From Chitinophagaceae bacterium (GTDB taxonomy: Bacteria; Bacteroidota; Bacteroidia; Chitinophagales; Chitinophagaceae), in NCBI GenBank assembly GCA_024508725.1, contig JANINS010000004.1, positions 1,010,163-1,074,162 of the forward strand: a stretch of DNA of 64,000 nucleotides, given 5' to 3'. The notes below the pieces were generated by a model. That model was not told the origin of the DNA and ran no database searches. It was given only the letters and a program-made list of their open reading frames with translations. This document shows, piece after piece, positions 10,831-57,048 of the stretch. Positions within the stretch are counted from its first letter, which is position 1. The number at the start of each line of letters is the position of its first letter. The position numbers and the translations under genes are program-made.

Positions 10831-11712
10831 CTATAGGAAAGTTCTGCTCAAACCTTCCTCCAAACGCATTGGTGTAAAGCCAAGTTCCTGCTTTGCTTTA
10901 CCGATCGTTAGTCCGCCATGCTTCGCTCTTTTTACAGGCTCAGGAAAAGTATCGGCAGTTACAGGCTCGATCAATGTTTTATCCAGCTTCAGTAATTCAG
11001 CTACAGCCACAGCCATCTGGTACGGACTAACCACTTCTTCTCCGGATAAATGATATAATCCCATTGCTTTCTTGTTAATGATAGATTCGATTCCTTTACA
11101 GATATCACCCACATAACTGGGTGTTCTCATTTGGTCGCTTACCACTTTTATCGGCTTGCCTGCTTCAAGACTATCTTTTACCCAATGCAAAAAAGTAGAT
11201 CGCATACCATTCCACACTTCACCATACATAAACACAGGCCTGACGATCGTATAATGTAATCCGCTATTGATCAACATCTGTTCTCCTTTCAACTTTGTCT
11301 CTCCATAGAAATTCAGTGGTGCAGGAATAGCATTTTCATCATGCGGACCTCCATCACCCAATACAAAATCGCTGGAAGTATAAATACAATGAATCTTCTC
11401 ATCCAGTTTGTGTACTGCTTTTACCAGGTTAGAGATAGCATCTATATTCACTTGCCGGCATCGGTCAGGTTGCTGTAAACATTCATCCGGCTTACTCATT
11501 GCCGCAGTATGAACAATCACATCCGGTTGTATTTGCTCCATCATTTCTTCCACCGCAACAGTGTAGGCCAGGTCACATGAAAAATATTTTACATCTTCAA
11601 AAGGAAGCCGCTTTTCGCCTTTTCCGGCAGCAAAAACATTGTGATCATCCTTTAAAAATCGGCACAAATGCTGACCCAGGAAGCCATTTGCCCCGGTAAT
11701 AAGAATTTCCAT
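10831..11712 (-). CDS. RmlD-like SDR family NAD(P)-dependent reductase/epimerase
   Basis: 293 residues, extended short-chain dehydrogenase fold. The N-terminal nucleotide-binding motif is TGANGFLG (G7, G10, G13). The catalytic residues are in TSSD (~112-115) and YGETK (Y136, K140). The sequence resembles RmlD, the dTDP-4-dehydrorhamnose reductase family: VHTAAM at ~67-72 and a GLYHLSG block near residue 220. No other dTDP-rhamnose genes are next to it, so the nucleotide-sugar role is uncertain and it may act on another sugar or small molecule. It is cytoplasmic and divergent from pfkA across a 98-base gap. Confidence 0.8.
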   Translation of the reverse strand: MEILITGANGFLGQHLCRFLKDDHNVFAAGKGEKRLPFEDVKYFSCDLAYTVAVEEMMEQIQPDVIVHTAAMSKPDECLQQPDRCRQVNIDAISNLVKAVHKLDEKIHCIYTSSDFVLGDGGPHDENAIPAPLNFYGETKLKGEQMLINSGLHYTIVRPVFMYGEVWNGMRSTFLHWVKDSLEAGKPIKVVSDQMRTPSYVGDICKGIESIINKKAMGLYHLSGEEVVSPYQMAVAVAELLKLDKTLIEPVTADTFPEPVKRAKHGGLTIGKAKQELGFTPMRLEEGLSRTFL

Positions 11713-26903: not shown

Positions 26904-26918
26904 AACTTTGCTGAGCGA

Positions 26919-26978
26919 GTTTTGAGTTTACAGTTTTGAGTTTAATCAACCCCAAACTAAAAACTACAAACTAAAAAC
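26919..26978. repeat. Long imperfect hairpin of GTTTTnAGTTT repeat arms
   Basis: Left arm 26919-26943 and right arm 26954-26978 are 25 bases each and pair at 21 positions, around a 10-base loop. The arms are built from GTTTTGAGTTT / GTTTTTAGTTT words. The right arm reaches into the stop codon of the sigma-54 activator gene. A further copy of an arm occurs at 52564-52588. Confidence 0.7.
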
Positions 26979-28249
26979 TATTCCTCTATATCATACTCCT
27001 TCAACTTCCTGTACAGTGTTCTTTCACTAATGCCAAGATCTGTTGCTGCATCTTTTCTTCTTCCCCGGTGTTTCTTCAATGCTTTTATGATCAGTTCTTT
27101 TTCCTTGTCCATTATGTTCAACGACTCTTCCACTTCTTCATGATGATGAATATCGTCGTTATGCAATACCACTGGTTGATGTGTTGCAGGCTGTACATAT
27201 CCCGGAACTGTTGCTGGCTGAGGAATCGCCGGCAACATATCTCCGTTCATATGAGCAGCATGTGCATGATCGTTCAGCAATGATTCCTGTGCAAAATTTG
27301 CTGCATGGCCAGCCAGTGAAGGATTCTGAAGGATCTCAACGAACATCTTTTTTAGTTCGGTTACATCCTTCTTCATATCAAAGAACAGTTTGTACAATAT
27401 CTCTCTCTCGTTAGCGAATTCCTGTGAAGCAGAAGGTTGGTTTGCCAATACCGGCATCCTGCTCATGTATCGCTCCGGTAAAAATCTTCTCAGCTCAGTT
27501 GCTGTTAATGATTTCTCAGGACTCAATACAGAAACCTGCTCTGCAATATTCTTGAGTTCTCTCACATTTCCGGGGAAAGGATAATTTATTAGCAGATTTT
27601 TAGCGTCTTCATCCAACTGAACGGGAGGCATTTTATAACGCTCTGCAAAGTCAACTACAAACTTCCTGAACAGTAAAATAATATCTTCTTTCCTGTCTCT
27701 GAGTGCAGGCACACGGATCGGTACAGTGCTTAAACGATAATAGAGATCCTGCCTGAACTTGCCTTGTTGCACTGCATCCAGCAAATCTTTATTGGTTGCT
27801 GCAATCACACGTACATCTGTTTTTTGCACTTTAGAAGAACCCACACGAATAAACTCACCCGATTCCAATACACGAAGCAATCTTGCCTGTGTACCCAAAG
27901 GCATTTCGGCGATCTCGTCCAGGAATATTGTTCCTGCATTTACTGTTTCGAAATAACCTTTCCTGCTATCGGCTGCACCTGTAAATGAGCCTTTCTCATG
28001 ACCAAATAACTCGGAGTCTATCGTTCCTTCCGGAATCGCTCCACAGTTCACAGCAATGAAAGGTGCATGTTTTCTTGTTGATAATGCATGAATGATAGAT
28101 GAAAAAGCTTCTTTACCAACACCACTCTCCCCTATGATCAATACGGTAAGATCAGTAGCGGCAACCTGTGCAGCAGTACTGAGTGCCAGGTTTAAGCCGG
28201 CTGAGTTACCGATAATTCCGAATCGATTCTTTATACTTTGAATGTCCAT
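26978..28249 (-). CDS. Sigma-54 dependent transcriptional activator (AAA+ with Fis HTH, no sensor domain)
   Basis: 423 residues. The AAA+ domain starts almost at the N-terminus: Walker A GESGVGKE (40-47), the sigma-54 contact loop GSFTGA (87-92) and Walker B TIFLDEIAEMP (~107-117), then an Arg-finger region. After residue ~250 there is a long linker rich in H, P and A, and the C-terminus is a Fis-type helix-turn-helix (ATDLGISERTLYRKL). It drives ATP-dependent opening of RpoN promoters. No receiver, PAS or GAF domain is present, so control must come from a partner protein or from its level. It sits at the head of the lptE-secG operon. Confidence 0.93.
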   Translation of the reverse strand: MDIQSIKNRFGIIGNSAGLNLALSTAAQVAATDLTVLIIGESGVGKEAFSSIIHALSTRKHAPFIAVNCGAIPEGTIDSELFGHEKGSFTGAADSRKGYFETVNAGTIFLDEIAEMPLGTQARLLRVLESGEFIRVGSSKVQKTDVRVIAATNKDLLDAVQQGKFRQDLYYRLSTVPIRVPALRDRKEDIILLFRKFVVDFAERYKMPPVQLDEDAKNLLINYPFPGNVRELKNIAEQVSVLSPEKSLTATELRRFLPERYMSRMPVLANQPSASQEFANEREILYKLFFDMKKDVTELKKMFVEILQNPSLAGHAANFAQESLLNDHAHAAHMNGDMLPAIPQPATVPGYVQPATHQPVVLHNDDIHHHEEVEESLNIMDKEKELIIKALKKHRGRRKDAATDLGISERTLYRKLKEYDIEE

Positions 28250-30460: not shown

Positions 30461-30814
30461 CGCTCAGAAACAGATTTTAGCCAACAAAAATAACTAAAAA
30501 AGATGCAAGATGCCAGTTTGGCAGATTGTTAAGTTTCGGTTATACGAACGAGGCTGTGTCATTGTTTGTCATAGGTTGACTTCGTTTGGCTCATTCCTTC
30601 TCAATGAAGCTGCTATACCTTGTTCGGGACTTGTTCGGGACTTGTTCGAGTCTGCTTCGGGAATTCCCGAAGCCGTCCCGAAGAAGAGGCGAAGGAAAGG
30701 CGAGGAAAACCCGGCTGAGGATAAAAGCATAGATGCTGACGAAGGATGTATTGCTCAGGTACGAAGGAGGTAGTTGCATCTTAATAGACACTACTTTTAT
30801 AACTTCATTAATCA
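30461..30814. other. 354-base intergenic region with GC-rich repeats
   Basis: No convincing gene. From 30620 there are three 11-base direct repeats (TTGTTCGGGAC twice, then TTGTTCGAGTC), then a perfect 20-base palindrome at 30654-30673 (half-site GCTTCGGGAA), then GTCCCGAAG. The rest is AT-rich with no recognised site. Confidence 0.6.
30620..30682. repeat. CTTCGGGA repeat cluster with 20-base palindrome
   Basis: Direct repeats TTGTTCGGGAC at 30620-30630 and 30631-30641, TTGTTCGAGTC at 30642-30652, palindrome GCTTCGGGAA/TTCCCGAAGC at 30654-30673, then GTCCCGAAG. The composition is GC-rich against the surrounding AT-rich gap. Words of the CTTCGGGA type are common intergenic repeats in this phylum. 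Confidence 0.7.
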
Positions 30815-46174: not shown

Positions 46175-46191
46175 ATTAACCACATAGTTAT

Positions 46192-46236
46192 ATAGGCACA
46201 TAGCTTACATAGACCCCTATGTTACTATGTGCCTAT
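46192..46236. repeat. Inverted repeat of the CTATGTGCCTAT family between accD and smpB
   Basis: Left arm ATAGGCACATAG, CTT, ACATAG (46192-46212); right arm CTATGT, TA, CTATGTGCCTAT (46217-46236). The loop is only ACCC. The arms differ only by the two or three unpaired bases in the middle. It can form a strong cruciform or RNA hairpin and may act as a terminator for accD. Related to the single copy at 43823. Confidence 0.75.
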
Positions 46237-46248
46237 GTGTTAAGTAAC

Positions 46249-55830: not shown

Positions 55831-56736
55831 ATGGAATCTACATCTAACCAGCAGAGAGTAATAAGAGAAAACCCAACTGAGAAATATCCTACAGACTTTC
55901 CTGAACAGGAGCAACGCATGCCTGGTACAGAACAAAGAATGAATCCGAAACCAGATCATGGCGAAGAAACCTATAAAGGCAGCGGTAAGCTTACAGGTAA
56001 GAAAGCATTGATCACCGGTTCAGATTCAGGTATCGGCAAAGCAGTCGCTATTGCTTTTGCCCGTGAAGGTGCAGATGTATTGATCTCCTACTGGAAAAAA
56101 GAAGAAGAGACGGATGCCAAAGAAACAGCTGATCTTGTTGAAAAAGCAGGAAGAAAAGCAATACTGGTACAAGGCGACATCAGTAAAGAAGACCATTGCA
56201 AACATCTCATCGATACTGCAGTAAAAGAACTGGGCGGTTTAGATATTCTCGTAAACAATGCTGCTTACCAGATGAGCCACGAATCACTACAAGAGATCAC
56301 TACCGAAGAATTCGACTTCACTTTTAAAACAAATCTTTATTCCATCTTCTGGCTCTGCAAATATGCCGAGCCACATTTACAACCAGGCGGCTCTGTGATC
56401 AACACCAGCTCGGTAAACGCATATACTCCTTCAAAAGAATTAATGCCTTATGCCGTAACCAAAGGTGCTATTCAAAACTTCACGGCTTTGTTAGCACAGA
56501 TGTGGGGCGAAAAAGGAATTCGTGTAAACTGCGTTGCACCCGGACCAATCTGGACGCCACTCATCGTTGGCAGCTTCGATGCCGAAAAGATCAAAGAGTT
56601 TGGTAAGAAAACGCCTTTAAAAAGAGCCGGTCAGCCTGCAGAACTCGCCCCGGTATATGTGCTCTTAGCATCTAATGATGGAAGTTATATGAATGGTGCT
56701 ACCGTACAGGTTACGGGTGGAATGCCTACGGTTTAA
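55831..56736 (+). CDS. SDR family oxidoreductase, stress-protein type
   Basis: 301 residues. A ~50-residue polar extension precedes the Rossmann domain, as in the YdaD/YhdF (general stress protein 39-like) group. Cofactor motif TGSDSGIG (62-69), NNAAYQM, then the catalytic Ser in INTSSVNAY and YAVTK with the catalytic Tyr and Lys. The C-terminal VTGGMPTV end is typical. It is a cytoplasmic NAD(P)-dependent reductase; substrate unknown. It is followed by a perfect palindrome at 56772-56817. Confidence 0.9.
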   Translation: MESTSNQQRVIRENPTEKYPTDFPEQEQRMPGTEQRMNPKPDHGEETYKGSGKLTGKKALITGSDSGIGKAVAIAFAREGADVLISYWKKEEETDAKETADLVEKAGRKAILVQGDISKEDHCKHLIDTAVKELGGLDILVNNAAYQMSHESLQEITTEEFDFTFKTNLYSIFWLCKYAEPHLQPGGSVINTSSVNAYTPSKELMPYAVTKGAIQNFTALLAQMWGEKGIRVNCVAPGPIWTPLIVGSFDAEKIKEFGKKTPLKRAGQPAELAPVYVLLASNDGSYMNGATVQVTGGMPTV

Positions 56737-56771
56737 GTTTTAGATGGATTTTACTAATAGAAACAGGATAC

Positions 56772-56817
56772 TTAGTCCGTACTTAGTCCGTACATGTACG
56801 GACTAAGTACGGACTAA
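56772..56817. repeat. Perfect 46-bp palindrome built from TTAGTCCGTAC units
   Basis: Left half is TTAGTCCGTAC repeated twice plus A (56772-56794); the right half is its exact reverse complement (56795-56817) without any loop bases. All 23 pairs match. It lies 35 bases after the SDR stop. There is no U tract after it, so it may be a strong hairpin, a cruciform or a protein site. Confidence 0.85.
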
Positions 56818-56895
56818 CTTAATCTTAAACCAGGTGCAAAGCACTCTTATTGCTTTGCAAGGCCGGGATGTTTATCTTTGGAAAAAACACAGAAC

Positions 56896-57048
56896 ATGTC
56901 GTTACCTGTTAATAATAACAACAAAGGAAAGAAAGGCAATAACAACAAAAAGCCCAACGCCGCAGGATCTAAGTTCATTCCCAAGCCAGGTAAAGTGGCA
57001 GGCTCTCCTTCCAAAACACCAAGAACCGGTGGAACAAGAGGCAGCTAA
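56896..57048 (+). CDS. Small basic protein (50 residues), Asn/Lys/Gly-rich
   Basis: ATG at 56896, TAA at 57046. Rich in N, K, G and P, with NNNNKGKKGNNNKK near the start and a C-terminus FIPKPGKVAGSP then TGGTRGS. It is strongly basic and disordered, consistent with nucleic-acid binding, but this is only composition. I recall similar short proteins in Chitinophagaceae, but no family name can be given. It is shorter than the usual annotation cutoff. Confidence 0.5.
   Translation: MSLPVNNNNKGKKGNNNKKPNAAGSKFIPKPGKVAGSPSKTPRTGGTRGS

Follow-up and report, generated by a model that had tools for sequence, protein, structure and literature searches.

A perfect 46-bp palindrome, in which a single 11-letter word is used four times, lies between two genes at positions 56772–56817 of the 64,000-nucleotide stretch of Chitinophagaceae bacterium DNA analysed here (the window), and an identical copy occupies a second intergenic site on the same contig, 204 kb away and outside the window. 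The palindrome probably represents a short repeat that was copied recently. It belongs to the general kind of dispersed extragenic palindromes, of which it is a variant form, and the evidence forces no new mechanism for it. Our preferred interpretation, adopted tentatively, is that of a low-copy, lineage-specific extragenic palindrome that was presumably copied to its two intergenic sites and is most likely carried along as a passenger in the non-coding DNA instead of serving as a dedicated part of some machinery. Such a pair of identical, loop-free palindromes, unlinked within a single genome and without a counterpart in the other genomes searched, would show a palindromic repeat at an early stage, when it has not yet grown into a large family.

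Architecture and rarity of the palindrome

Copy A (window positions 56772–56817, corresponding to C4:1066934–1066979; no strand assigned) pairs at 23 of 23 positions and is loop-free, exactly at the coordinates reported by the initial annotation. Its layout is TTAGTCCGTAC-TTAGTCCGTAC-AT-GTACGGACTAA-GTACGGACTAA, with a left arm of two tandem 11-bp units (56772–56793, plus strand) facing a right arm of two mirrored units (56796–56817, minus strand), both delineated by a repeat scan; the 11-base tandem that had been described for each half is indeed present, each half comprising two TTAGTCCGTAC units plus one centre base. The unit itself splits into 7 bp and 4 bp (TTAGTCC-GTAC). No match to an Rfam model at the gathering score was found in the whole window.

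The rarity ascribed to the palindrome was also borne out, since about 1e-7 perfect palindromes of 46 bp are expected per genome at 40.5% GC and the runner-up within the 64-kb window measures 20 bp. The longest other perfect palindromes are of 34 and 22 bp in two 400-kb samples of the same genome and of 22 bp in 400 kb from five relatives, and the loci of other relatives (126,575 bases) contain none of at least 20 bp. The two samples of the genome contain 12 perfect palindromes of at least 18 bp, only the 46-bp one having a twin there. The 34-bp palindrome (C4:1157491–1157524, L045), whose arms are AAAAGCC/GGCTTTT and which occurs once in the sample, has the look of a bidirectional terminator.

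A second copy with a one-sided shoulder

That the palindrome might be an event with no other copies, a case raised by the initial annotation, did not hold, a genome-wide search for TTAGTCCGTAC having found a second identical palindrome (copy B) at C4:1270630–1270675. The unit occurs ten times in the 3,883,901-base genome, four times in each palindrome and twice singly (window positions 11020–11030 and C4:761089–761099); neither a third palindrome (over 46 bp) nor a further inner palindrome was found in the genome at up to three mismatches. Independent chance formation is ruled out by the second identical copy together with the expected number given above. Both copies are intergenic, in a genome with a non-coding share of about 9% (400-kb sample, ORFs of at least 100 aa masked).

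On one side, the similarity extends beyond the palindrome: 16 of the 23 bases at 56749–56771 (plus strand), here termed the shoulder, are common to the matching side of copy B (minus strand), which gives a 69-bp match at 90%. An equally good extension was obtained for 126 of 200,000 random intergenic position pairs, self-pairs included. In local alignments against shuffled sequences, support for the shoulder side fades as the flanks lengthen (p = 0.01, 0.053 and 0.189 with 40-, 80- and 150-bp flanks, respectively), and no similarity was found on the other flank (p = 0.72, 0.57 and 0.92); beyond the 23-bp shoulder the flanks of the two copies are mostly unrelated. In both copies (n = 2) GATAC precedes the stem on the shared side, and GTAG is absent. 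The shoulder motif is matched a third time at C4:1226762, with one mismatch among its 16 fixed bases; this match, internal to an ORF, was taken as chance; from our reading of the ORFs, the genes beside it are presumably phage-like.

Given the divergence of 7 of the 23 shoulder bases, the probability of finding the two palindromes identical is about 0.013, assuming approximately 12 independent positions, a number that presupposes that each copy keeps itself regular. The identity of the copies against a diverged shoulder is a mild hint of constraint or of recent conversion.

Genomic context

Copy A begins 35 bp after the stop codon of a short-chain dehydrogenase/reductase (SDR) gene (55831–56736, plus strand) and ends 78 bp before the start of a gene for a 50-aa basic protein (56896–57048, plus strand). 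These are the neighbours named in the initial annotation, and they are right for copy A, whereas those of copy B differ. The 50-aa protein is rich in Asn, Lys and Gly, has no Pfam or NCBIfam match and has homologues in 16 of the 118 other genomes searched; searches at these 16 other loci revealed no SDR and no acylase. Copy B sits between divergent genes: on its left, 22 bp away as counted from the first ATG, a 240-aa gene on the minus strand, and on its right, at a distance of 150 bp, a gene for a DUF92 membrane protein. A guess that the 240-aa gene encodes a DUF6266 protein found no support and was dropped. Each copy lies upstream of a gene, in the same reading direction relative to the shoulder, an agreement with a chance of one half. 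A same-genus genome (76% complete) has different DNA upstream of the acylase, yielded no homologue of the 50-aa protein and has nothing beside its DUF92 gene that matches the 240-aa gene; a comparable site was not found in the relatives examined.

Distribution in other genomes

The tandem 22-mer, sought at up to two mismatches in 394 genomes of the family drawn from a larger group, was found in its own genome alone. A check for conservation in relatives had been proposed in the initial annotation; with no copy in the 393 other genomes there is one carrier, so the palindrome may reflect an event in one lineage. An exact search for the inner palindrome, with 20 fixed bases, had no match in genome_contigs (described as 84,980 species) or in viral contigs, two collections that may omit the records of the genome itself. 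BLAST returned no match to the whole palindrome in plasmids, and the best match in phages covers 24 bases at 92% (E = 0.8, Bacillus phage SP-15). The retention of the palindrome had been attributed to a use or to very recent formation: recency fits the absence from the 393 family genomes and the large collections, whereas a use found no support, there being no close variants in the genome and no inverted repeats with arms longer than 9 bp upstream of the 16 homologues of the 50-aa gene.

A search for the outer arms separated by any gap of 0–30 bases retrieved three loci, all of 47 bp and with different interiors, and had no match in viral contigs. One (L078:1440–1486, Gordonia hydrophobica) is a near-perfect palindrome located where a nitronate monooxygenase ORF ends, with convergent ORFs on its two sides. 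The other two (L079:258–304 and L080:499–545) are palindromes in MAG contigs of an uncultured Eubacterium and of Lachnospiraceae UBA7196, respectively, which look homologous and were counted once. The L079/L080 palindrome overlaps with a sigma-70 promoter (12 of 12) that points to a transporter-like ORF, which we take to be MATE; it has a MarR-family gene nearby and is likely to be a repressor operator in Lachnospiraceae-type MAGs. Shared ancestry of the 46-bp palindrome with these loci was not accepted, the common part being the outer 11-mers demanded by the search pattern; after these, ATGTAC is found on both arms in L079 and on one arm in L080. A rough estimate gives one or two such gapped hairpins expected in 257 billion bases, and the three loci are treated as analogues.

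No paper containing TTAGTCCGTAC was found in the literature text, and none on intergenic palindromic repeats of Chitinophagaceae was found in a literature search. Judging from titles and the opening lines of abstracts, matches to shorter cores look unrelated.

Origin and relation to known repeats

The interpretation as a low-copy passenger is favoured because the two copies are identical, intergenic, flanked by a one-sided shoulder and absent from the other genomes searched, because a second dyad of the same architecture, with another sequence, is also two-copy and dispersed (see below), and because the genome contains four Y1_Tnp matches, one of them near other hairpins. It is weakened because two copies hardly establish a repeat family, and because none of the four Y1 genes lies at either palindrome, no carrier gene was seen at either copy and no clear target-site duplication was found by eye. 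The shoulder has diverged at 7 of 23 positions while the palindrome has not, which hints at constraint, and both copies lie upstream of a same-direction gene, a placement that a passenger does not need; these points also weaken the passenger interpretation.

The palindrome could have arisen through replication slippage, by which an inner 24-bp palindrome would have gained an 11-bp tandem duplication, followed by template switching between the arms, which would have made them perfect and may keep them so. The second copy might have been placed or equalised by some form of copying, such as gene conversion or the action of a Y1/HUH single-strand transposase. Template switching is able to create and mend perfect stems, according to excerpts of one report (PMC8794818); like the template-switch products or perfected quasi-palindromes outlined there, the palindrome has arms that are identical within each copy, which would thus be explained, whereas the presence of the same sequence at two distant loci is not explained by template switching alone.

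REP elements, as outlined in excerpts of two reports (PMC8266576, PMC3733652), are extragenic palindromes of 20–50 nt that carry a conserved tetranucleotide, occur in great numbers and are linked to TnpA-REP; the tetranucleotide before the stem, the REP tag, is most often GTAG, and a second REP group has perfect palindromes. Compared with REP/RAYT systems so described, the 46-bp palindrome is likewise short, extragenic and at scattered sites, with a shoulder on one side only, but it is two-copy rather than high-copy, has GATAC and no GTAG before the stem in its two copies, which are too few to define a tag, and no Y1 gene beside either copy, and its stem is longer, uninterrupted and made of tandem units. 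Because the copy number and the transposase neighbour differ, it was not filed as a REP. If the palindrome is a passenger, it offers a clean case for how hairpins get copied when just two exist.

Elsewhere in the genome, the Y1 gene at C4:967541 is ringed by three TCCGGCAT/ATGCCGGA hairpins (L083:823, 1053 and 1906), a fourth being found at C4:1135460; the hairpins around this gene form a REPtron-like arrangement.

Alternative interpretations

A role as a transcription-factor operator, in which a tandem pair of 11-bp half-sites (7 bp + 4 bp each) would stand opposite a mirrored pair and regulate the promoters of the 50-aa and 240-aa genes, is possible but rather doubtful. Both copies are placed as an operator would be, upstream of genes that are read in one direction when oriented by the shoulder and, for copy B, between divergent genes, and this reading stays alive because the identity of the two palindromes next to a shoulder diverged at 7 of 23 positions (p of about 0.013) hints at constraint or recent conversion. 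The L079/L080 palindrome, with the same outer 11-mers, its sigma-70 promoter and its MarR-family neighbour, may be seen as an analogue. MarR/TetR-type repressors have palindromic operators, which the 46-bp palindrome resembles in being mirror-symmetric and close to gene starts; it departs from them in its arms of tandem units, in the lack of degenerate sites in the genome and in that no regulator gene was seen adjoining either copy. OmpR/PhoB-type regulators have direct-repeat boxes, with 7-bp sites every 11 bp, a spacing found in the TTAGTCC-GTAC units, but in the palindrome the pair is mirrored as well and exact to the letter, and further pairs in the genome are not above control: TTAGTCC-N4-TTAGTCC at up to two mismatches has five additional occurrences where the backwards control has 16 and 18, and the inner palindrome has none within three mismatches. 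The upstream regions of the 16 homologues of the 50-aa gene, with no inverted-repeat arms longer than 9 bp, also speak against an operator.

A candidate promoter of the 50-aa gene, TTG-N20-TATCTTTG (56850–56880, plus strand), follows a consensus that we assume to apply, and its pattern lacks power, with 36 matches against 48 in reversed sequence (800 kb); an ORF start lies downstream in 11 of 36 cases against 2 of 19 in reversed sequence, the latter figure coming from one sample only. No sigma-70-type promoter was called near copy B. A separate 9-bp inverted repeat, TGCAAAGCA/TGCTTTGCA (56835–56859, no strand assigned), found in the sequence and paired in the RNA fold, overlaps the candidate promoter. 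Were a protein to bind the palindrome, the adjoining genes would form a ready-made small regulon.

It is unlikely that the palindrome serves as a transcription terminator or as an mRNA 3'-end hairpin, ending or protecting transcripts; because it is a perfect palindrome, it would act in both directions. Measured from the SDR stop codon, the centre of copy A lies at about 59 bp downstream, inside the peak at +50 to +80 after the stop codon that is reported for bacterial inverted repeats in an excerpt of one study (PMC13155455). A consensus scan lists copy A as terminator-like, with the tail CTTAATCTTA, and the RNA of the intergenic region (56737–56895, 159 nt) folds at -57.4 kcal/mol (z = -7.5). 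However, the scan lists three such sites in 2 kb where shuffled sequences give 2.0, T never occurs more than twice in succession in the tail of copy A, and copy B has neither an adjoining gene end nor a terminator-like site in the scan; a terminator could fit copy A only.

Less probable still is a part in phage- or element-type recombination machinery, as a site of recombination or single-strand processing and not a passive repeat. When the 69 bases of shoulder and palindrome are folded as single-stranded DNA (-22.7 kcal/mol, z = -8.6), the palindrome alone pairs and the shoulder stays unpaired, and the one-sided shoulder may be likened to that of the tagged single-strand substrates outlined in an excerpt of PMC8266576. 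On the other hand, the palindrome is absent from the viral contigs, plasmids and phages searched, and no recombinase gene was noticed beside either copy.

Palindromic linkers exist, and the copies are identical and found in no other genome searched, but an assembly or linker artefact inserted twice is highly improbable, as is a single chance event, because there is a second identical copy, both copies lie between genes (neither breaks a gene) and 16 of 23 flanking bases are common to the two; a linker should also recur elsewhere, yet the exact inner palindrome is missing from genome_contigs.

Other dyads of tandem units

The repeat scan revealed a second dyad in the window (30616–30709, no strand assigned), with 11-bp tandem units around GCTTCGGGAATTCCCGAAGC (TTCGGG type). 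Its one other copy in the genome (C4:968359–968452, L135) is 88% identical, with genes for a Y1 transposase and a DUF6266 protein close by. Judged by their letters, this dyad and the 46-bp palindrome share architecture, not sequence: both are intergenic, with arms of tandem 11-bp units and two copies in the genome, whereas TTCGGG-type dyads have a unit not detectably related, imperfect symmetry and a presence in other genera. Membership of one sequence family found no support, TTCGGGACTTG and TTAGTCCGTAC agreeing at 7 of 11 positions at best, as do 14% of shuffled pairs equally well.

Matches to the TTCGGG dyad at E of at most 0.001 were found in 10 of the 394 family genomes, including its own (nine of the 393 others), and some of them are long mirrored arrays of TTCG units. 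An ORF is present on both sides in 13 of 16 places examined (seven divergent, four tandem and two convergent), four of the 16 being placed by motif density only and two, L146 and L152, having an ORF call across them. The Y1 gene near L135 was matched by no TTCGGG locus of another genome; L142, from another genome, matched the HTH gene neighbouring that Y1 gene. We know of no name for TTCGGG-type dyads, and among the literature matches listed for their units all look unrelated from titles and the beginnings of abstracts. Their presence in the same window suggests a recurrence, within the family, of 11-bp units in mirror-symmetric arrays, and no description of such arrays was found in a limited literature search.

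A scan for tandem units of 6–16 bp mirrored within 100 bp yielded eight clusters in a first 400 kb of the genome, including both palindromes, two in a second 400 kb and one in 400 kb of five relatives. Markov controls gave one cluster in three runs and four in 20 runs for 400 kb, and one in 25 runs for the 80-kb samples of the relatives. Tandem-armed dyads exceed random sequence; no special enrichment in this genome is claimed because the first sample was chosen to hold both palindromes. It is conceivable, but improbable, that dyads of tandem, helically phased 11-bp units constitute a distinct kind of dispersed element in the family, with several unrelated units (TTAGTCCGTAC, TTCGGGACTTG) kept regular by slippage and template switching. 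Such dyads would either act as docking arrays for a DNA-binding protein or spread as self-templating hairpins, and among them the 46-bp palindrome would stand out as the purest example and the most recent.

Tandem and inverted repeats are also seen at two other places in the window. Intergenic CACATAG/CTATGTG tandem and inverted repeats occupy positions 46181–46240, with similar sites near C4:1053901–1054000, and at 26917–26980 two AGTTTTGAGTTTAC units are followed by two CAAACTAAAAACTA units, so that tandem 14-bp arms stand face to face.
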